From Bifidobacterium breve (GTDB lineage: Bacteria > Actinomycetota > Thermoleophilia > Solirubrobacterales > Solirubrobacteraceae): 64,000 nt of DNA. The stretch spans positions 1 to 64,000 of the forward strand of contig CAMCUD010000022.1 of NCBI GenBank assembly GCA_945878865.1. The letters are read 5' to 3'. The notes beneath the pieces are model-generated. The model did not search any database and was not told the origin of the DNA. It saw nothing but the letters and a program-made list of their open reading frames with translations. The translations under genes were made by a program, and so were the position numbers. Position 1 is the stretch's first letter. Every line of letters starts with the position of its first letter. Below, one piece after another: positions 6,728-36,952 of this stretch.

Positions 6728-7378
6728 ATGGCCGACACCCCCTCCCCCCAGACGCGGAGCGTCAAGATCGCGGACGACGAGCGGGGAGGCTGGTCCTCCG
6801 ATCGCCCGCGTCGCGACGGCGCCGCGCCCTCTGCCCGGCCGCGCGACATCTCCGTCCGCTGCCGCGTGCTGCAGCCCGCCTTCCGTCTGCGCTACACCCC
6901 CGGCAGCCTGCTGCTCATCGCCAGCGGCTCGACCGAGCAGGCCGAGCAGTTCGCCAACCGGGTCCTCGAAGAGAAGAACGCGATGCTCTCGCTCGCCAAG
7001 GTGCGGCGCCTGCTCGCGGGCAAGGTCAGCGGCGAGGAGCTCGAGGCGAAGGCCGCGCAGCTGCTCGACGCGGCGATCACGAAGCGCCTGCAGGCCGGCG
7101 AGTCCACGGTCGTCGTGCTCGACACGGTCGGCGCCGAGGAGCGCGAGCCGCTCGTGCGCGCCGCGGCGAACCTGCGCCGCCCGCGGCACATCATCCTGCT
7201 CGAGGCCCCGCGGGACGCGATCTCCGACGAGGACCGGCCGGTGCTCAACGAGCTGCGCAAGGCGCTGGATGCCGGGGATCTCGGCTCCGAGGGGATCCAG
7301 ACGGCGCTGCGGCTGGGTGGGGCGACGATCTCGGACACCAAGAAGATCGTGTTCCGGCCTCCGCCTGCTGACGACTGA
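6728..7378 (+). CDS. Degenerate P-loop kinase-like protein
   Basis: A 216-aa protein that follows the layout of the small AAA_33/polynucleotide-kinase-like P-loop family: a first strand LLLIASGSTEQAEQFA, then NAMLSLAKVRRLLAG in the substrate-binding position, then AAITKRLQAGESTVVVLDTV and RPRHIILLEAPRDA. The Walker A Lys-Ser/Thr is missing (GSTEQAEQF in place of a GxGKS/T pattern), so ATP hydrolysis is doubtful. The first about 45 residues are disordered. GGAGG stands only 1 nt before the ATG, an unusually tight spacing. Family assignment rests on pattern alone. Confidence 0.55.
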   Translation: MADTPSPQTRSVKIADDERGGWSSDRPRRDGAAPSARPRDISVRCRVLQPAFRLRYTPGSLLLIASGSTEQAEQFANRVLEEKNAMLSLAKVRRLLAGKVSGEELEAKAAQLLDAAITKRLQAGESTVVVLDTVGAEEREPLVRAAANLRRPRHIILLEAPRDAISDEDRPVLNELRKALDAGDLGSEGIQTALRLGGATISDTKKIVFRPPPADD

Positions 7379-7403
7379 GCGCTCTTGTGGTCGGCGCGGG
7401 GGC

Positions 7404-7508
7404 GGTCAGGGTGCTGCCCGTCGCCCGCCGGTTCGCAGGAACTCGTCGGCGTTCTCCGCCTTTCTCTCTGGCCTGCTCCTGAAGGCGGCGACAGACAGCA
7501 CCCTGACC
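7404..7508 (-). repeat. MITE-like repeat, copy B with 13-bp terminal inverted repeats
   Basis: The 105-bp unit is bounded by GGTCAGGGTGCTG (7404-7416) and its exact inverse CAGCACCCTGACC (7496-7508). Its interior contains an exact 29-nt match (7422-7450) to the reverse complement of 132-160 in copy A. It has no open frame of note, so it is a non-autonomous element or a structured intergenic repeat. The gene-free stretch 7379-7734 contains this copy, copy C and a hairpin; I see nothing else in it. Confidence 0.7.
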
Positions 7509-7509
7509 A

Positions 7510-7646
7510 CCCCCGTGACACCCGGCGCGGTCGCCGTGCGGACGCCGGGGCCCAGAGGCGGGTGGGGTGGGTGGCCGTTCCCAGCCGCATTCCGGAGCGG
7601 GCCAGAAGCGAGGACGGCAGATCAGCCGACGAGTTCCCGCGACCGT
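7510..7646 (+). repeat. Complex repeat, copy C
   Basis: This copy matches copy A at the left edge of the window with a constant offset of 7493 bp; 7554-7636 is nearly identical to 61-143. It lies 1 bp from copy B and in the opposite orientation, so B and C share the GCCGACGAGTTCC core in inverted arrangement between two convergent genes. Confidence 0.75.
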
Positions 7647-7681
7647 GCGGGCTGGGGGCGGTCACCGACCCCAACCCGCAC
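7645..7681. terminator. Hairpin between convergent genes
   Basis: GTGCGGGCTGGGG (7645-7657) pairs with CCCCAACCCGCAC (7669-7681) with one mismatch across an 11-nt loop. It lies downstream of both the gene ending at 7378 and the minus-strand thiolase ending at 7735, so it could end transcripts from both sides. Confidence 0.45.
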
Positions 7682-9076: not shown

Positions 9077-11191
9077 GTGCGTCTGCGGATCGTCCTTCTC
9101 GCGCTCGGCCTTGTGGGCGTCGTGCCCGACGCGGCGTCGGCGGCACCGGGCGTGTGCACGTATGACGCGGGCACGCAGATCGCGACGTACGAGTGGCCGT
9201 CCACGTACGCCACGAGTGAGGTGCCGGGCGTACAGCGTTTCGGCGCCGGTAACGCGCAGATCACCGTCGGGTACGCCCCCGACGGCGCCTGCGGCGCGGC
9301 GACGGTGACGAATACGAAGGAGGTCCGGATCGTCGGGACCCCGCCGGCGTCCACGAGCACCCGTGACGATTTCTCCATCGCGCTCAAGAACGGGGTGATG
9401 GCCCCCGGCAGCGGCGGGACGGGCGAGGTCAAGGTGACGTTCGTCAGCCCGGGCCGGACGATCTACGTGCGCGTGGGGGGCTCGCCGGATCCCGATCGCA
9501 TCACCGTCGGCGCGGCGGGGGTCAACCTCAACGCCGACGAGGCGACCGACGACGTCGACGTGACCCTGACGGGGTCCGGCGGGATGCTCGTCACCGGTCT
9601 CGGATGCACCGACTCGATCTGCAACGCCGACGGCTCGGCGGGCGATGACACCCTGAAGACGACCGGTGGCGACGCGACCGGCGCCGCGGCGCCGGGCAGC
9701 TTTGCGCGCAGCACGCGGGTCTTCGGGGGACCTGGCGCTGACACCATCACGGTGTCGCGGTACACGAGCGTGTTTCCCGGCCCCGACAGCGACGTGATCA
9801 CCGGCCCCGGCGTGCAGCCCGACCGCTTCCAGGCCGCGACGCTCGACTACCGCGGGACGCCCGCGGGGGTTGTCGTCGACCTCGACGCGGGCACGGCGAC
9901 GGGCGGGTCGGGTTCCGACACCGTGAGCGGGGTGCAGAACGTCGTGGGCACCTCGTTCCCCGACACGCTGCTGGGCGACGGCAACGCCAACAGCCTGTCG
10001 TCCGAGGGTGCGGGTGCGGACCTCATGCGCGGCCGCGGTGGAAACGACTCCCTCGCCGGAGGTAGCGGCGCAGACACGCTGGAAGGCGGGCCCGACGCCG
10101 ACGACCTGACCGGCAACGCGGGCGGCGACACCCTCAGCGGCGAGGAGGGCAACGACACGTTGACCGGCGATGTCGGCACGGGCTCGGCGGGCAACGACAC
10201 GCTCCTCGGCGGGCCCGGCAACGACGGGCTCGTCCCGGCCACCGGGGACGACATCGTCGACGGCGGACCCGACAAGGACGAGCTGCGCTTCGCCTACGTC
10301 ACCGCGACGCCCGTCGTGTTCGATCTCGCGGTGACGGCGAAGCAGAACACCGGTGGCGGCGGCCTGAAGACCGTCACCAACGTCGAGGACATCTCCGGCT
10401 CCTCGCAGAGCGACACGCTCTCCGGGGACGATGGTCCCAACGCGATCAACGGTGGGTTCGGCGGCAACGACACGCTCGACGGTCGCGGCGGGAACGACGC
10501 TGTGCGCAAGTTCTCGACGGCTGCAGGCCTCGCGCGGGGCGGTCCCGGCGCGGACACCGTCTCCGGCAGCGACGGGGCGGACGTCCTCGAGGGCGGCCCG
10601 GGGCCCGACACGATCCTCGCGCTGAAGGGCGACGACACGTTGCGCGGCCCGGCCGACGGCGAGAAGGACACGCTCTACTGCGGCGAGGGCACGGACACCA
10701 CCGAGCATGATGCGGGGCTCGACGTGTTGAGCGAGTGCGAGAACGGCACCGGCACGGTGTTCGTCCCGCCGCCCATCGTCACCCCGGACCCGGCGCCGGA
10801 GGTCTCCGCGCCCGCACCGGCTCCGCAGACGCCGGTCGTTCCCGCCGCCGCCACGCCCGCGGCGGCGCCGCTCCCCGCGATCCCCGCCGCCCAGGCGATC
10901 AAGCTTCCCGCCGCCACGTCGTGCGCGAGCCGCCGCACGCTCACCATCAACCTCGTGCAGCCCGCCGGCGTGACGTTCACCCGGGCGAAGGTCACGCTGA
11001 AAGCGGGGAAGAAGACGATCAACCGCACCCTGACGCCGAAGAAGGCGGGCAAGGGCCTGAAGATCGACGTCGACCTGCGCGGGCTGCCGAAGGGCCGGTT
11101 CACCGTGGCCATCGAGGTCGCCGCGGCGGACGGCAGGACGGTGAAGGCCTCGCGTGCCTACCGGACCTGCACGCCGAAGAAGCGGCGCTGA
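9077..11191 (+). CDS. Secreted RTX-like calcium-binding repeat protein
   Basis: A 704-aa exported protein. A short signal peptide (ending about residue 23, ASA) is followed by a Cys-containing N-terminal region. Several blocks of glycine/aspartate nonapeptides of the GGxGxDxLx type follow between about residues 215 and 560 (for example GGPGADTITV, GRGGNDSLAGGSGADTLEGG), which normally fold as a Ca2+-binding parallel beta roll. Then come a Pro/Ala-rich linker (about 565-610) and a basic Ig-like domain ending in CTPKKRR. GTG 9077 has GGGAGGA 9 nt upstream. A role at the cell surface is inferred; no enzymatic domain is seen. Confidence 0.8.
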   Translation: MRLRIVLLALGLVGVVPDAASAAPGVCTYDAGTQIATYEWPSTYATSEVPGVQRFGAGNAQITVGYAPDGACGAATVTNTKEVRIVGTPPASTSTRDDFSIALKNGVMAPGSGGTGEVKVTFVSPGRTIYVRVGGSPDPDRITVGAAGVNLNADEATDDVDVTLTGSGGMLVTGLGCTDSICNADGSAGDDTLKTTGGDATGAAAPGSFARSTRVFGGPGADTITVSRYTSVFPGPDSDVITGPGVQPDRFQAATLDYRGTPAGVVVDLDAGTATGGSGSDTVSGVQNVVGTSFPDTLLGDGNANSLSSEGAGADLMRGRGGNDSLAGGSGADTLEGGPDADDLTGNAGGDTLSGEEGNDTLTGDVGTGSAGNDTLLGGPGNDGLVPATGDDIVDGGPDKDELRFAYVTATPVVFDLAVTAKQNTGGGGLKTVTNVEDISGSSQSDTLSGDDGPNAINGGFGGNDTLDGRGGNDAVRKFSTAAGLARGGPGADTVSGSDGADVLEGGPGPDTILALKGDDTLRGPADGEKDTLYCGEGTDTTEHDAGLDVLSECENGTGTVFVPPPIVTPDPAPEVSAPAPAPQTPVVPAAATPAAAPLPAIPAAQAIKLPAATSCASRRTLTINLVQPAGVTFTRAKVTLKAGKKTINRTLTPKKAGKGLKIDVDLRGLPKGRFTVAIEVAAADGRTVKASRAYRTCTPKKRR

Positions 11192-11205: not shown

Positions 11206-11254
11206 GGGGTGTCGCCGAAACCGGTCGAGATCGGACCGTTTTCGGCGTCACCCC
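11206..11254. repeat. 49-bp palindromic repeat, copy 1 (intergenic, terminator position)
   Basis: An imperfect 49-bp palindrome that begins GGGGTGTCGCCGAAA and ends TTTTCGGCGTCACCCC. It lies between the stops of two convergent genes, so it can act as a bidirectional terminator. Three further 49-bp copies with the same ends are at 20095, 34547 and 35467. Confidence 0.8.
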
Positions 11255-11257
11255 GGG

Positions 11258-12943
11258 TCAGCCGGCCACGATCGGCAGCGGCGCGACCGGCTCGGGCTCG
11301 CCGCTCGCGGTCTTCCCCGCGATCGGGGCAGCGCCGATCGGCGCCCGCGCGGTCGCGCCCTCCTTCACCGGAATCTGCGCCATCGCGCGCTCGGTCAGCG
11401 CGGTGATCGTCAGCGACGGGTTGACCCCGACGTTCGCCGGGACGGCCGAGCCGTCGCAGACCAGGAGGTTCTCGTAGCCGTGCACGCGGTGGTCGGCGTC
11501 GATCACGCCGTCGTCCGCCGTCGCGCCAATGACCGCGCCCCCGAGGAAGTGCGCCGTCGACGGCACGTTCATGAGCGACTCGAACACCGAGGACTGCGCG
11601 ATCCCGCCGGTGCGCTCGGCCAGCCACTCGGTGAAGCGGTTGGCGTCGGCGATGTACGTCGGGTTCGGCTGGTCGGCGTGCTGGGCGGTCTGCAGCTTGA
11701 CCTTCCCGCCGCGGCCCACGCGCGCGGTCAGCCGGATCGCGTTGTCGAGCGATTGCATGACGAGCACGATGATCGTGCGCTCGGACCAGCCCGGCTGGAA
11801 CGTGTGCTTGAGGAACCGGCCGGGGTGGCGCACGATCTGGCCGAGGAGCTTCAGCGGGCGGGTGACCTTCGTCCCGTCGCCGACGAGCAGCCCGAACAGG
11901 CCGCGCATCGCGCCTGCGCCCTTGCCGTAGATGACCGTCTCGATGTGGGTGTGCGGGTCGGGGTAGATCGACGAGGTGATCGCGACCCGGTCGACCAGAC
12001 CGGCGTCCTGGCCCGGCGGAACGGTGACGGCGAGGATCGACTCGCTGTTGGTCCGCACGAGCTCGCCGAGGCGCGGGGAGAGGTGCGGCAGATTGCCGTC
12101 GGCCCGCGCCTGGGCGAGCAGCTGGTTCGTGCCGAGCGTGCCGCCGGCCACGACGACGCCCTTGCAGCGGATGATCTGGCGGTCCTTGCGCCGCCAGGCG
12201 CCGGTGCGCTCGTGGATGACCTCCCAGCCGTCTTCACCGCGTGCGCCGATCGGCCGGATCGTCGCGACCTCGCGCTCGGGCCGCACCTGCGCGCCGAGCT
12301 TCTCGGCGAACCACAGGTAGTTCTGCGTCAGCGTGTTCTTCGCGCCGACGTTGCAGCCGAGCATGCAGCGCCCGCACGAGATGCAGCCGGTGCGCTCGGG
12401 CCCCTCGCCGCCGAAGTACGGGTCGGCGACGGTCTGGCCGGGCGTGTCGAGGTACGTCCCGACGCGCGCCTTGCGGTACGTGTCGTCGACGCCGAGTTCA
12501 CGCCCGTACTCGCGCAGCCACTGGTCGGCCGGATCGTCGTACGTCACGTCCGTGACGCCGAGCATCCGCTGCGCCGTCTCGTAGTGCGGCTCGAGCTCGG
12601 CGTGCCAGTTCCGCAGGTCCGCCCACTGCCTGTCGAGGAAGAACGCAGGCGGCGGCGTGTAGAGCGTCATCGCGTACGCCAGCGACCCGCCGCCGACACC
12701 CGCCCCGCAGGAGATGAAGACGTCCTTGAACATCCGCAGGTGGAACAGGCCGCGCAGCCCGAGCTTGGGCGCGAAGAAGTAGTTGCGCACGTCCCAGTTC
12801 GAGTCGGGCATGTCGTCCGGCTCGAAGCGGCGGCCCTGCTCGAGGACCGTGACCCGGTAGCCCTTCTCGGCGAGGCGCAGCGCCGAGACGCTCCCGCCGA
12901 AACCGGAGCCGATGACCACCCAGTCGGTGTCGTGCGTTCCCAT
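11258..12943 (-). CDS. GMC oxidoreductase, ChoD-like (downstream paralogue)
   Basis: A 561-aa FAD-dependent oxidoreductase of the cholesterol-oxidase-like (ChoD) branch of the GMC family, which oxidises alcohols or sterols to ketones. The FAD-binding motif is GSGFGGSVSALRLAEKG near residue 12. A cysteine cluster TGCISCGRCMLGC (CxxCxxCxxxC) and the late GMC segments (STAHFLGGAVIG, NVGVNPSLTITALTERA) are present. It shares most of its sequence with the protein encoded immediately upstream (12967-14667), 23 nt away, and both are probably co-transcribed. The substrate is not known. Confidence 0.85.
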   Translation of the reverse strand: MGTHDTDWVVIGSGFGGSVSALRLAEKGYRVTVLEQGRRFEPDDMPDSNWDVRNYFFAPKLGLRGLFHLRMFKDVFISCGAGVGGGSLAYAMTLYTPPPAFFLDRQWADLRNWHAELEPHYETAQRMLGVTDVTYDDPADQWLREYGRELGVDDTYRKARVGTYLDTPGQTVADPYFGGEGPERTGCISCGRCMLGCNVGAKNTLTQNYLWFAEKLGAQVRPEREVATIRPIGARGEDGWEVIHERTGAWRRKDRQIIRCKGVVVAGGTLGTNQLLAQARADGNLPHLSPRLGELVRTNSESILAVTVPPGQDAGLVDRVAITSSIYPDPHTHIETVIYGKGAGAMRGLFGLLVGDGTKVTRPLKLLGQIVRHPGRFLKHTFQPGWSERTIIVLVMQSLDNAIRLTARVGRGGKVKLQTAQHADQPNPTYIADANRFTEWLAERTGGIAQSSVFESLMNVPSTAHFLGGAVIGATADDGVIDADHRVHGYENLLVCDGSAVPANVGVNPSLTITALTERAMAQIPVKEGATARAPIGAAPIAGKTASGEPEPVAPLPIVAG

Positions 12944-12966
12944 GGCCGGGAAGCGTACGGCCCGGA

Positions 12967-14667
12967 TCAGGCGGTGACGACCTCGACCTGCGCCGGCATC
13001 GGCCGCACGGGCTCGGGCGCGGCGGTCGCGGTCTGCCCGGGAATCGGGGTCGCGCCGATCGGCGGGTGCACGACCGCGCCGTCCTTCGCCGGCACCTGCG
13101 CCATCGCACGCTCGCTCATCGCGGTGATCGTCAGCGACGGGTTGACGCCGACGTTGGCCGGCACCGCGGCGCCGTCGCACACGATGAGGTTCTCGTACCC
13201 GTGGACGCGGTGGTCGGCGTCGATGACGCCGTCGTCCGCCGTCTCGCCGATGACGGCGCCGCCGAGGAAGTGGGCGGTCGACGGGATGCTCAGGACGGCC
13301 TCGAAGATCGATGACGACGCGATCCCGCCCGTGCGCTTGGCCAGCCACTCGGTGAACTGGTTGGCGATCGGGATGAACGTGGGGTTCGGCCGCTCGGGGT
13401 CCTGCTCGGTCTGCAGGCGGACCTTGCCGTTGCGCCCCGCCTTCGCGGTGAGCCGGATCGCGTTGTCGAGCGACTGCATGACGAGCACGATGATCGTGCG
13501 CTGCGACCACCCGCGCGAGAAGGTGAGCTTGGCGAACTGGCCGGGGTGTGTCGCGATCCGCGCCAGGAGCCGCAGCGGGCGCGTGAGCTTCGAGCCGTCG
13601 CCGGTCAGCAGCGTGAAGAGGCCGCGCATCGCGCCGCCACCCGCGCCGTAGACCACGGTCTCGATGTGCGTGTGCGGGTCGGGGTAGATCGACGACGTGA
13701 TCGCCACGCGCTTGGAGATCCGCTCCGCGTCGGCGCCCGCGGGGATGGTGACGCCGAGCACGGCCTCGCTGTTCGTGCGCACGAGCTCGCCGAGCCGCGG
13801 CGAGATGTTCGGCAGGTGGCCGTCGGCCCTGGCCTGGGCGAGCAGCTGGTTCGTGCCGAGCGTGCCGCCCGAGACGACGATGCCCTTCGCGCGCAGCACC
13901 TGGCGGTCCTTGCGCAGCCACGCGCCCGTGCGCTCGTGGACGATCTCCCAGCCGTCCTCACCGCGCGCGCCGATCGGCTTGATCGTCACGACCTGGCGGT
14001 CCGGCGTGATCGTCGCGCCGCGCCGCTCGGCGAACCAGAGGTAGTTCTTCGGCAGGCTGTTCTTCGCGCCGACCGGGCAGCCCATCATGCAGCGCCCGCA
14101 CGCGGTGCACCCGGTGCGTGCGGGGCCCTCGCCCCCGAAGTACGGGTCGGCCACCGTCTGGCCGGGCGTGTCGAGGTACGTGCCGACGCGCGCCTTGCGG
14201 TACGTGTCGTCGACGCCGAGCTCGCGGCCGTACTCGCGCAGGAGCTGGTCGGCCTCGTCGTCCTCGGTCACGTCGGTGACGCCGAGCATCCGCTGCGCCG
14301 TCTCGTAGTGCGGCTCGAGCTCGGCGTGCCAGTCGCGGATCGAACCCCACTGGGGGTCGCTGAAGAACGCCGGCGGCGGCGTGTACAGGGTCATCGCGTA
14401 GACGAGCGAGCCGCCGCCGACGCCCGTTCCGGACATGACGAAGATGTCCTTGAACGGCGTCATGCGGAACAGGCCGCGCAGCCCGAGCACGGGCGCGTAC
14501 AGCCAGCGGCGCAGGTCGAACGTGGAGCGCGGGATGTCCTCGTCCTCGATGCGCGGGCCCTGCTCCAGGACCGTGACGCTGTAGCCCTTCTCCGCGAGGC
14601 GCAGCGCCGAGACGCTCCCTCCGAAGCCCGAGCCGATGACCACCCAGTCGACGTCGTGCGAACCCAT
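12967..14667 (-). CDS. GMC oxidoreductase, ChoD-like (upstream paralogue)
   Basis: A 566-aa tandem paralogue of the next gene with the same layout: FAD motif GSGFGGSVSALRLAEKG, cysteine cluster TGCTACGRCMMGC, and C-terminal STAHFLGGAVIGETADDG and NVGVNPSLTITAMSERA. The family oxidises hydroxyl groups of sterols or similar hydrophobic alcohols. The ATG at 14667 starts the Rossmann fold directly; the open frame continues far upstream but that extension is opposite to the PucR gene and not homologous to the family. The two copies probably arose by local duplication. Confidence 0.86.
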   Translation of the reverse strand: MGSHDVDWVVIGSGFGGSVSALRLAEKGYSVTVLEQGPRIEDEDIPRSTFDLRRWLYAPVLGLRGLFRMTPFKDIFVMSGTGVGGGSLVYAMTLYTPPPAFFSDPQWGSIRDWHAELEPHYETAQRMLGVTDVTEDDEADQLLREYGRELGVDDTYRKARVGTYLDTPGQTVADPYFGGEGPARTGCTACGRCMMGCPVGAKNSLPKNYLWFAERRGATITPDRQVVTIKPIGARGEDGWEIVHERTGAWLRKDRQVLRAKGIVVSGGTLGTNQLLAQARADGHLPNISPRLGELVRTNSEAVLGVTIPAGADAERISKRVAITSSIYPDPHTHIETVVYGAGGGAMRGLFTLLTGDGSKLTRPLRLLARIATHPGQFAKLTFSRGWSQRTIIVLVMQSLDNAIRLTAKAGRNGKVRLQTEQDPERPNPTFIPIANQFTEWLAKRTGGIASSSIFEAVLSIPSTAHFLGGAVIGETADDGVIDADHRVHGYENLIVCDGAAVPANVGVNPSLTITAMSERAMAQVPAKDGAVVHPPIGATPIPGQTATAAPEPVRPMPAQVEVVTA

Positions 14668-31464: not shown

Positions 31465-33150
31465 GTGAGCTCGCCCGAACCTGCCGCCCGCCGCCCAGTG
31501 ATCCTCGCGGTGGACGACGAACCGGCGGTGCTCTCGGCCGTCGCGCGCGACCTTCGCGCCCGGTACGGCGGCGAGTACCGCATCGTCCGCGCGACTTCGG
31601 GCAACGAGGCGAAGGGCGTGCTCGAGGAGCTGCGCCGCCGCGGCGAGACCGTCGCGCTCGTCCTCTCCGATCAGCGGATGCCCGACGGCGACGGCGTGTC
31701 GCTGCTGACCGCTGCGCGCGAGCTGTACCCGCAGGCCAAGCGGGCGCTGCTGACCGCCTATGCAGACACCGAGGCGGCGATCGCCGCGATCAACGCCGCG
31801 CAGACCGACTACTACCTGCTGAAGCCGTGGGACCCGCCGGAGGAGCGCCTCTACCCGACGCTCGACGACCTCCTCGGCGACTGGCAGGCCGACGCCGCGC
31901 TCACGGATGTCGCCGCGCGCGTCATCGGGCACCGCTTCAACCCCGCGAGTCACGAGGCCCGCGACTTCCTCGCGCGCAACCGCGTGCCGTACCTCTGGCT
32001 GGACGTCGACCGTGACGGTGAAGCTCGCCAGCTTCTGCAGATCGCCGGGGAGGACGAGTCGCGCCTGCCGATCGTCGTCCTGCGTGACGGCACCGCGCTG
32101 GCGCAGCCGACGAACCTCGAGCTCGCCGACCGGCTCGGGATCGCCCGCCGCGCCGAGCTCGACTTCTACGACCTCGTGATCGTCGGCGGCGGTCCAGCCG
32201 GCCTGGCGGCGGCGGTGTACGGCGCCTCCGAGGGGTTGCGCACGGTGCTCGTCGAGCGCGAGGCGCCGGGTGGCCAGGCGGGGCAGTCCTCGCGCATTGA
32301 GAACTACCTCGGCTTCCCCAATGGGCTGTCGGGGTCTGAACTGGCGCGGCGCGCGCTCGATCAGGCGCGCCGCTTCGGCGCGGAGGTGCTCACGGTGCAG
32401 GAGGTCGTCGGGCTCGATGCGCGCGAGCCGCAGCGTGTCGTGCGTCTGGCGGGCGGCGACGAGCTGGCCGGTCACACGGTCCTCGTCGCCTCGGGCGTCT
32501 CCTACCGGATGCTCGACGCGCCCGGCGTCGCGCAGTTCGCGGGCGCGGGCGTGTACTACGGCGCGGCGCTCGCCGAAGCCGACTCGTGCTCCAACCAGGA
32601 GGTCGTCGTGGTGGGCGGCGCGAACTCCGCAGGTCAGGCCGCGGTGTTCCTCGCGCGACGCGCGAAGAAGGTGACGATGCTCGTGCGCGCCGACTCGCTG
32701 GCGAAGTCGATGTCGCACTACCTCATCGAGCAGATCGCGGCGATCGACAACATCGAGGTGCGTACGTCGACCGTGGTCGCCGCCGCGTCGGGTGACGGGC
32801 AGCTGGAGCGCCTCTCGCTCGCGACGTCGTCGGGTGAGGACGCCGGCGAGATCGACCTCAGCGCGATGTTCATCTTCATCGGCGCGGCGCCCCGGACGGA
32901 CTGGCTTGGCGAGGCGGTCGTCCGCGACGACCACGGGTTCATCCTCGCGGGCTCGGATGTCGCGGCGCTGGACGGCGCCGTGCGGTGGCCCCTCGCGCAC
33001 CGTCGCGATCCATTCCTGCTCGAGTCCTCGCTGCCCGGGGTCTTCGTCGCCGGCGACGTGCGGCACCGCTCCATCAAGCGCGTCGCCAGCGCCGTCGGCG
33101 AGGGCTCGATGGCGGTCCAGTTCATCCACGAGTACCTCGCTGACGCATGA
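31465..33150 (+). CDS. Response-regulator/thioredoxin-reductase-like fusion flavoprotein
   Basis: A 561-aa fusion. An N-terminal receiver domain (about 11-125; phospho-acceptor Asp in LVLSDQRMP, Thr in LLTAYAD, Lys in LLKPWD) is joined by an alpha/beta segment (about 150-230) to a two-Rossmann thioredoxin-reductase-like domain (VIVGGGPAGLAAA; VVVGGANSAGQAA). The redox CxxC of true thioredoxin reductases is absent: only ADSCSNQE stands there. The output is therefore a flavoprotein of unknown acceptor. The GTG at 31465 has a poor ribosome site and an ATG at 31402 is possible. The stop overlaps the kinase start. Confidence 0.8.
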   Translation: MSSPEPAARRPVILAVDDEPAVLSAVARDLRARYGGEYRIVRATSGNEAKGVLEELRRRGETVALVLSDQRMPDGDGVSLLTAARELYPQAKRALLTAYADTEAAIAAINAAQTDYYLLKPWDPPEERLYPTLDDLLGDWQADAALTDVAARVIGHRFNPASHEARDFLARNRVPYLWLDVDRDGEARQLLQIAGEDESRLPIVVLRDGTALAQPTNLELADRLGIARRAELDFYDLVIVGGGPAGLAAAVYGASEGLRTVLVEREAPGGQAGQSSRIENYLGFPNGLSGSELARRALDQARRFGAEVLTVQEVVGLDAREPQRVVRLAGGDELAGHTVLVASGVSYRMLDAPGVAQFAGAGVYYGAALAEADSCSNQEVVVVGGANSAGQAAVFLARRAKKVTMLVRADSLAKSMSHYLIEQIAAIDNIEVRTSTVVAAASGDGQLERLSLATSSGEDAGEIDLSAMFIFIGAAPRTDWLGEAVVRDDHGFILAGSDVAALDGAVRWPLAHRRDPFLLESSLPGVFVAGDVRHRSIKRVASAVGEGSMAVQFIHEYLADA

Positions 33151-34553
33151 TCACCGCCGAGGAGCTCGCGTCGATCGATCTCTTCGACGAGGTCACGGAC
33201 GCCGAGCGGGCGGCGTGGGCCGCGGTCGCCGAGGAGCGCTGGTACGAGCCGGGTGACGAGGTCATCCGCGAAGGGATGCGGTTCGTCCTGCTGCTCGAGG
33301 GGCGCCTCGACGGGATCCGCGAGCGCGAGGACGGAACGTCCGAGGTCGAAGGTCAGCAGGTCGCCCCAACCTGGATGGGCGCGATCTCGGTGCTGACCGA
33401 GCAGCCGCCGCCGATGTGGTTCCGGGCGGTGGAGCGCACGCGGATCGGGACGGTCGGTCCAGAGGACTTCCGCCGGCTCGTCTTCGAGCAGCGCCCGGTG
33501 TTCCTGCGGATCATGCGCCAGTTCCGCCCGGTGATCTCCCGGGTCGAGGGCAACGAGATGCGCCGCGAGAAGCTCGCGTCGCTGGGCACGATGGCGGCGG
33601 GCCTCGCGCACGAGCTGAACAACCCGGCGTCGGCGGCCAAGCGCAGCGCCGACCAGCTCGCCGAGTCCCTGAACGCGGTGACGAGCGCGCTGCGGACGTT
33701 CGTCGAGGCCGGGGTCGAGCGTGAGGACGCGCAGAAGTTCGTCGAGCTGCAGGACCGCGCGGTGACGAGCTACGCGGCCTGCACGATCGAGGACAAGAAC
33801 CCGCTCGCCGTCGCCGACCGCGAGGACCGGTTGCTCGAGCTGTTGGAGGACCAGGGCGTCCGTGAGGCGTGGAAGTACGCCGAGCCCCTCGCGCGCGCGG
33901 GCGTGGACGAGGACTGGCTCGAGCAGCTTGTCGCCGCGGCGGGCGCCGCCACCGAGGCGGCGGTGCGCTGGGTGGCGGCGTCGTTGACCGCGCGCTCGCT
34001 CGCCGACGAGCTGCGCGAATCGACCGACCGGATGTCCGGTCTCGTGAGCGCGATGAAGACCTACGCGTACATGGACCAGGGCGACCTCGTCGAGGTCGAC
34101 GTGCACGAAGGCCTGGAGGCGACGCTCACGATCCTCGCCCACAAGCTCAAGCACACGTCGATCGAGGTCGTCCGGGCCTACGGCGATCACCTGCCGACCG
34201 TGTGCGTGTACGGCAGCGAGCTCAACCAGGTGTGGACGAACCTGCTCGACAACGCGATCTCCGCGCTCGGCGAGTCCGGGACGATCACCATCAGCACGCG
34301 CGCGTGGAACAGCGACGGCGTGGAGGTGGTCATCGAAGACGACGGCCCGGGGATCCCGGAGGAGCTCCAGCGCCAGGTCTTCGACCCCTTCTTCACGACG
34401 AAGGCGGTGGGGGAGGGCACCGGCCTGGGGCTCGACACCGCGCGCCGGATCGTGGTGGACCGCCACCAGGGCACGATGGACCTCGAGTCCCGGCCGGGGC
34501 GGACGGCGTTCACGGTCCATCTGCCGCGGGCGCCGCGGCGGGTGGAGGGGTGA
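33147..34553 (+). CDS. Sensor histidine kinase with N-terminal cNMP-binding-like domain
   Basis: A 468-aa cytoplasmic kinase. Residues about 5-120 resemble a cyclic-nucleotide-binding domain. The dimerisation helix carries the phospho-acceptor in GLAHELNNPASAA, and the ATPase domain has NLLDNAISA, DDGPGIPEE, FDPFFTTK and GTGLGLDTA. It has no membrane segment, so the signal is internal. ATGA overlap with the preceding REC-flavoprotein gene strongly suggests that the two proteins are partners. Its TGA stop lies inside a 49-bp palindrome. Confidence 0.87.
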   Translation: MITAEELASIDLFDEVTDAERAAWAAVAEERWYEPGDEVIREGMRFVLLLEGRLDGIREREDGTSEVEGQQVAPTWMGAISVLTEQPPPMWFRAVERTRIGTVGPEDFRRLVFEQRPVFLRIMRQFRPVISRVEGNEMRREKLASLGTMAAGLAHELNNPASAAKRSADQLAESLNAVTSALRTFVEAGVEREDAQKFVELQDRAVTSYAACTIEDKNPLAVADREDRLLELLEDQGVREAWKYAEPLARAGVDEDWLEQLVAAAGAATEAAVRWVAASLTARSLADELRESTDRMSGLVSAMKTYAYMDQGDLVEVDVHEGLEATLTILAHKLKHTSIEVVRAYGDHLPTVCVYGSELNQVWTNLLDNAISALGESGTITISTRAWNSDGVEVVIEDDGPGIPEELQRQVFDPFFTTKAVGEGTGLGLDTARRIVVDRHQGTMDLESRPGRTAFTVHLPRAPRRVEG

Positions 34554-34595
34554 CGCCGGAAACGGTCGAGATCGGACCGTTTTCGGCTACACCCC
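34547..34595. repeat. 49-bp palindromic repeat, copy 3 (3' flank of the AbiEi/DUF559-type gene)
   Basis: A 49-bp palindrome beginning GGGGTGACGCCGGAAACGG and ending CGGCTACACCCC. It contains the TGA stop of the kinase (34551-34553) and, on the other strand, the TAG stop of the AbiEi/DUF559-type gene (34587-34589). As a hairpin in both transcripts it could act as a bidirectional terminator. Confidence 0.8.
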
Positions 34596-35510
34596 CACGA
34601 GCAGGACCATGGTCTCGTCGAACCGGCGACGCTCGCGAGCGAACTGCCGGGTCGTAAAGCGGACGGTTTGCCACCCAGCCAGCAGGAGGTCAGCGTCCCG
34701 GAACCGGTCGTACTCCATCTGCTCGCGCCGCTCATGCGAGGTCCGCCCGTCGGCCTCGAGGATGATGCCGCGATCGGGCCACGCGAAGTCCGCGCGATAG
34801 CGCTTCCCGCTGTGTCCCTCGACGCGGTACTCGCAGATCGGGGGCAGGATCGGCAGGTCATCGAGCGCGAGCAGCATGCGGTTCGCCAGCGGGAGCACCG
34901 TTCGGCGTTCACGTGCTTCCTTCGGTGAGATCGCGCCGAGGTTCGCGAGGCCCGGATGACCGGGGTACCGCTCGGCCACGGTTTCGATGTCGCGATCGCG
35001 GACGACGCGGAGGTACAGCGCCTCGCCGACGAGCTGCTGGAGCGGCCGGCCGCTGAGATCCACGGCCAGGTCGACGAGCACCCGGAGCGGTTCGGTGACC
35101 GGCACGCCGCGGATCCTGCGGTGACGGATCTCGGCGCGGGTGTGGTGGATGACCAGACCGCGGCGGTCGCGGACGCGGCGGGTGGTGACGACGTGGTGCT
35201 GGTCGTCAGGTCGGGGCGCCATGCGGTAAGCCTCGGCGGCGGACCAGCCCGCGAGCATCGTCCGGCCGTGCGGCACCGCGAGGCAGGCGGCCGCGCGGTA
35301 TCCGTGCGCGGAGACGACCGGACTGAGGGCGTAGACATCGTCGTAGATCTCGAACAGGGTCTGCGCCCGGACGCGCTTGCGGATGCCCTGGCGCCCGAGC
35401 CCGAGATCGACGATCTGTCCGCCGCCGGCGACGCCTTGCTGGCGCGCGCAGAGGGCCGCCAGCTGGGGGGTGAGGCCCAACGGCGTCCGATTTCGACCGT
35501 TCTCGGACAC
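34587..35510 (-). CDS. AbiEi-type wHTH plus DUF559 (Vsr-like nuclease) domain protein
   Basis: A protein of about 300 aa. The N-terminal part ([20 protein letters not shown] and on) looks like the AbiEi antitoxin-type winged helix. The last about 90 residues ([17 protein letters not shown], then [20 protein letters not shown]) match the DUF559/Vsr-like endonuclease fold with its D...ExD pattern. No toxin gene is adjacent. The start is uncertain: GTG 35510 lies inside a 49-bp palindrome, TTG 35480 is an alternative. The stop lies inside another copy of the same palindrome, so the gene is exactly bracketed by repeats. Confidence 0.65.
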
Positions 35511-35515
35511 ACCCC
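35467..35515. repeat. 49-bp palindromic repeat, copy 4 (5' flank of the AbiEi/DUF559-type gene)
   Basis: A 49-bp copy beginning GGGGTGAGGCCCAACGGCG and ending TCTCGGACACACCCC. Unlike the other copies it is at the 5' end of a gene and not at a terminator position; the candidate GTG (35510) and TTG (35480) starts of the minus-strand gene both lie inside it. Confidence 0.75.

Positions 35516-35734: not shown

Positions 35735-36952
<1,218 letters not shown>

Follow-up and report, generated by a model that had tools for sequence, protein, structure and literature searches.

A nuclease gene bracketed by a palindrome

The window analysed here, a 64,000-nucleotide stretch of contig CAMCUD010000022.1 (GenBank assembly GCA_945878865.1, placed by GTDB in the Solirubrobacteraceae), encodes on its minus strand an AbiEi-DUF559 (Vsr-like) nuclease (34587..35510) whose gene has a copy of a 49-bp palindrome at either end. 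The copy at the 3' end (34547-34595) contains the TAG stop codon (34587-34589), while the copy at the 5' end (35467-35515) contains both possible starts, GTG at 35510 and the alternative TTG at 35480, and in gene sense both ends share the reading GGGGGTGT. A third copy stands alone at 11206-11254, where two converging genes leave a short gap. Sequence comparison and a covariance model recover all three copies (E = 2.4e-8 for the 5' copy); relative to the solo copy, the 3' copy is 90% and the 5' copy 65% identical, with one arm of the latter clearly diverged. These coordinates agree with an earlier reading of the window from its letters alone (the sequence-only reading), which had placed stop and starts inside the two palindromes and had pointed to the solo copy.

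The same reading had described the protein as an AbiEi-type winged helix joined to a DUF559/Vsr-like nuclease, and both assignments hold. In the AlphaFold model (predicted local distance difference test score, pLDDT, 90.2), residues 8-199 (34911..35486, minus strand) match the AbiEi antitoxin 6y8q_A (Z 10.8), in line with a PADLOC AbiEi match at 5e-11; the Pfam AbiEi_4 score of the protein is below cut-off. The C-terminus exceeds the gathering cut-off of Pfam DUF559 (PF04480; 23.3 versus 20.6 bits), and residues 203-306, covering the PD-(D/E)XK Vsr-like domain (34590..34901, minus strand), are closest to the catalytic domain of the homing endonuclease I-Bth0305I (3r3p, Z 12.8), followed by Vsr (1cw0, Z 10.6). 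Residues D240, E251, D253, H258, D267 and R283 are invariant in an alignment of 30 relatives, and the nuclease site therefore appears, from these sequences, to be kept by selection.

No AbiEii nucleotidyltransferase toxin gene adjoins the nuclease gene, its neighbours being a cNMP (cyclic nucleotide)-binding histidine kinase on the left (33147..34553, plus strand) and a thiolase on the right (35735..36952, plus strand; an open reading frame named from its sequence and by the sequence-only reading, with an orthologous flank in two related genomes). Both served to locate orthologous loci.

The palindrome is dispersed through its genome. In the 4.96-Mb genome there are 11 occurrences of the core GGTCGARATCGGAC and none of its reversed control, and a search with a covariance model derived from 11 copies yields about 17 distinct sites; together these results argue against a chance origin. 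Solo copies mostly occupy short gaps behind genes, several of them between converging genes. All 16 aligned copies have GGGTG...CACCC ends and none carries a GTAG motif at the palindrome end. Covariation among these copies is positive but modest, with six pairs changed on both sides and 7 of 500 shuffles scoring as high. None of the nuclease paralogues in this genome adjoins a palindrome of the window family, and some carry palindromes of their own. Paired solo copies on two contigs (C49 and C21) were considered as a second element and rejected, as their interiors share nothing with each other.

Bracketing across the protein family

We extracted homologues from relatives together with their flanks and compared each gene's own 5' flank to its own 3' flank. 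Matching ends at a score of at least 36 were found for 13 of 72 nuclease genes, compared with 0.33% of mismatched pairs and with none of 87 control genes adjoining them at these loci (Fisher P = 2e-5), so that DUF559/AbiEi genes are bracketed more often than other genes, a comparison that the sequence-only reading had proposed. One further gene with a high first-look score (L043) was dropped because the score came from a gene cut by the contig end. A scan of named genomes yielded 35 loci, five of them already in the first set, from Rothia, Rhodococcus, Micrococcaceae, Micropruina, Acidimicrobiia and Solirubrobacterales; it relied on a six-protein alignment, since a single-protein query returned nothing and a 30-protein alignment was too diverse. 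Most of these loci have near-identical palindromes of roughly 45-80 bp at both ends. In the pooled sets, 35 of 101 genes reach a score of at least 34 (mismatched-pair null 1.3%) and 31 reach at least 50 (null 0.4%). Some of these 35 are closely related: two Rothia clades contribute four and five loci, and one pair consists of close orthologues. Allowing for this kinship, we count about 27 independent cases.

Each bracketed nuclease gene has a palindrome of its own, unrelated to those of the others, and the bracketed elements measure 0.94-1.36 kb. The pairs are direct in 28 cases and inverted in seven, an orientation that is blurred by the palindromic nature of the ends. Many nuclease palindromes that are otherwise unrelated, seen at the gene ends of L099, L103, L133, L098, L107 and L131, form a GC-rich hairpin with an AT-rich apical loop (CTATG, CATATG or CTATAG), possibly a recognition feature that they share. 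Plasmid and phage records, searched with the queries used, did not yield the two-domain family and gave matches only to short DUF559 fragments on two plasmids; a plasmid or phage origin is thus not supported.

Dispersal and protein-palindrome specificity

When 17 palindromes were searched together in eight genomes, they gave repeated matches in their own genome and hardly any in other genera. Eight further palindromes searched against seven actinobacterial genomes gave strictly diagonal matches that always included both gene-end copies; solo copies beyond this pair were found in six of the seven genomes. Tallied among the matches listed, and hence as lower bounds, copies in the own genome number at least 25 for the C77 gene, at least 9 in G047, at least 12 in G063 and at least 17 in G066. 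Two genomes each hold two nuclease genes with two separate palindrome families, namely G010 (at least 17 and at least 6 copies) and Rothia G061 (at least 8 and at least 5 copies). Proteins more than 80% identical have a common palindrome, and below about 70% identity the palindromes differ; at one Rothia locus with a left flank 90% identical, the nucleases are 65% identical and the palindromes differ at both ends.

Turnover at orthologous sites

We compared the window genome (G000) with Svornostia abyssi (G001) and a Solirubrobacteraceae metagenome-assembled genome (G002). The nuclease gene is present at the window locus in G000 and G002, where the kinase is 81% and the nuclease 54% identical between the two genomes; the G002 orthologue has kept only 12-bp ends, both sharing GGGGGTGTGACG. 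S. abyssi has neither gene nor palindrome at this locus. The sequence-only reading had proposed looking for empty sites with one palindrome in this kinase-thiolase interval; the empty one in S. abyssi has none. A second site (L003) holds a solo palindrome in G000 and palindrome-gene-palindrome in both G002 and G001, and at a third (L009) the same position is occupied by a window-type palindrome in G000 and by a G001-type palindrome in G001. The solo palindrome at 11206-11254 is absent from the orthologous gaps of both relatives. Apart from L003 and L009, seven solo sites of G000 lack a palindrome in those relatives whose flanks can be aligned. Several relatives carry an extra gene at such sites instead, so that the change may have gone in either direction.

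Rothia strains differ in whether they carry a solo palindrome at L304 and L307; at L303 both arms are compensatorily changed in strain G070, and one strain has the nuclease gene without the 5' palindrome copy. In Rothia G069, a putative toxin-antitoxin-like pair, recognized by sequence, sits at a solo palindrome site between two identical copies (L317, 440-1260). Orthologous sites are therefore found as solo, as palindrome-gene-palindrome or as neither, with palindrome and gene both turning over.

Two side observations concern the palindrome sites. Solo palindromes stand in a deletion-junction-like arrangement where relatives hold extra genes, in Rothia (L300 versus L312-L314) and in the window genome (L011, L010 and L012 versus G001/G002). 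At Rothia site L307, a second palindrome, CGAATGCGAC...GTCGCATTCG, adjoins the copy of the first family or stands alone (L319, 480-545, and L320).

Other repeats in the window

The window contains repeats of other kinds. Positions 55-226 and 7351-7659 are linked by a direct repeat of 112 bp (93%) and by inverted matches of 43 bp at 98% and 49 bp at 73%. Tandem coding repeats of the GGxGxDxxx type, like calcium-binding RTX repeats, lie at 10067-10499, and long direct-repeat pairs, 71-84% similar, at 11273-14026 and 16048-17152/26600-27716, are probably paralogous genes.

Interpretation and alternatives

Bracketing is specific to the nuclease gene, dispersal is specific to the genome, gene and palindrome co-occur, and both vary in presence at orthologous sites. 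On balance we favor a two-part system similar to repetitive extragenic palindromic (REP) elements, in which a nuclease and its cognate palindrome are linked by cutting and repair that spread the palindrome and relocate the gene. A chromosomal nuclease with an AbiEi-type winged-helix N-terminus and a Vsr/homing-endonuclease-like C-terminus would recognize its own palindrome, presumably through the AbiEi-like part, and would cut or nick there; copying during repair would spread solo palindromes into gaps between genes, and the gene would relocate between palindromic sites to give palindrome-gene-palindrome. After gene loss, a solo palindrome or nothing would remain, and cognate recognition would make protein and palindrome diverge together. 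Repair or recombination at the palindrome accounts better than an inverted-end transposon for the predominance of direct pairs and for the duplicated palindromes around inserted cargo. We give even chances to the broader proposition that these form a phylum-wide class of repeat systems, selfish or domesticated, whose palindromes are propagated by a Vsr/homing-type nuclease instead of a transposase; by cut-and-repair the nuclease would also propagate itself, and protein and palindrome would co-evolve.

Several observations weigh against this interpretation. Binding, cutting and movement are inferred, none having been observed directly. No palindrome pair was detected at about two thirds of the genes tested, which often have the 5' palindrome only, and several palindromes (L044, L146 and L256) were seen at their own gene only. 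The correlation between protein and palindrome is partly phylogenetic, because orthologous genes have inherited their flanks as well. Where a solo site is empty in relatives, there are often further indels, so that no clean 49-bp insertion could be demonstrated. The palindromes can also bracket other cargo, as with the toxin-antitoxin-like pair in Rothia G069.

Autoregulation is the main rival, in which the palindromes would act only as operators and terminators: the AbiEi-like part would regulate its own gene through the palindrome, the 3' copy would be a terminator and the scattered copies would be selected binding sites or terminators. Such a role is favored by the established binding of AbiEi antitoxins to inverted repeats at the promoters of their own genes, by the many nuclease genes that have the 5' palindrome alone and by the solo copies in short gaps after genes. 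Most bracketed genes, however, have similar copies at both ends (28 direct versus 7 inverted), solo copies are mostly downstream of genes rather than at promoters, and copies are gained or lost at orthologous sites; we regard this explanation as unlikely. We are slightly more doubtful of hitchhiking, by which unrelated machinery would spread palindromes that are good landing sites, with the nuclease gene inserting or recombining there like other cargo. This would accommodate the toxin-antitoxin-like pair between identical copies at one Rothia site and the palindromes at sites where relatives hold extra genes, but not the unbracketed control genes or the separate palindrome family of each nuclease clade, even inside one genome.

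It is very improbable that these are classical REPs moved by a Y1 tyrosine transposase of the RAYT (REP-associated tyrosine transposase) class, with the nuclease uninvolved, despite their REPtron-like anatomy. Y1 transposase genes (PF01797) are absent from seven of the nine genomes checked (G000, G001, G002, G061, G063, G064 and G066), all seven of which have dispersed nuclease palindromes. Genome G010 does have three Y1 genes with repeats of their own, and serves as a positive control in that the flank comparison recovers these repeats (scores 43-97); they differ in sequence from the nuclease palindromes. Chance, or generic terminator hairpins at the two gene ends, can practically be dismissed: hairpins are frequent in GC-rich genomes, but the mismatched-pair null, the control genes, the reversed-pattern control and the diagonal specificity contradict this explanation.

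The sequence-only reading had likened the locus to REPs and RAYTs with a different protein family, and the enrichment, the recurrence across the family, the genome-wide solo copies and the filled, solo and empty sites support that likeness. It had also named two observations that would speak against the association. Genes without palindromes do occur to some extent, in that 35 of 101 genes are bracketed, the G002 orthologue has 12-bp ends only and the 5' copy is missing in one Rothia strain; an even spread of palindromes over all gene ends was not seen. The evidence for its mobile cassette is indirect, no transposition having been observed, and for a defense cassette we found no support.

Comparison with known systems

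Dispersed bacterial palindromes have so far been tied to one enzyme class, the RAYTs, and our literature search, mainly of titles and abstracts and short on subscription papers, found nothing linking this protein family or DUF559 to dispersed palindromes. If our interpretation is true, a second, unrelated enzyme family has its own palindromes in Actinobacteria, which would provide a function for many "domain of unknown function" genes and a nuclease-based route of repeat spread. The dozens of natural protein-palindrome pairs could be used to study recognition and co-evolution.

Like REP elements with RAYT (TnpA-REP) genes, described as REPtrons or TIRtrons (PMC3733652, PMC8266576), the system has short, dispersed intergenic palindromes in genome-specific families, a gene bracketed by its own palindrome and several pairs per genome. 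It departs from them in its enzyme, where a PD-(D/E)XK Vsr-like nuclease with an N-terminal AbiEi-like part takes the place of the Y1 HUH transposase, in its palindromes, which are about 37-80 bp long and lack the GTAG tag in the window family, and in its hosts, which are Actinobacteria. CGTC-tagged REPs, mostly from Alphaproteobacteria and without any known partner enzyme (PMC3733652), are likewise dispersed without a RAYT, but have 8-9 bp stems and the CGTC tag. The N-terminal 190 residues share the fold of AbiEi antitoxins of type IV toxin-antitoxin systems, but are fused to a nuclease with no adjoining AbiEii. Caulobacter VsrA is also a DUF559/Vsr-like chromosomal nuclease and is able to damage DNA, whereas it is tied to a cytosine methyltransferase and has no reported palindrome association (PMC12907096).

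With the EDxHD/Vsr-like homing endonuclease I-Bth0305I, the closest solved structure, the nuclease shares conserved Vsr-like catalytic residues, and as with homing endonucleases the gene is present at some target-like sites and missing from others. Homing genes, however, normally interrupt their site, whereas here, if the palindrome is the site, the gene stands between two whole copies and the genome has about 15 others, and there is no intron or intein. The system thus lacks both the defining enzyme of REPtrons and the interrupted site of homing genes, yet would resemble both in the way it works.
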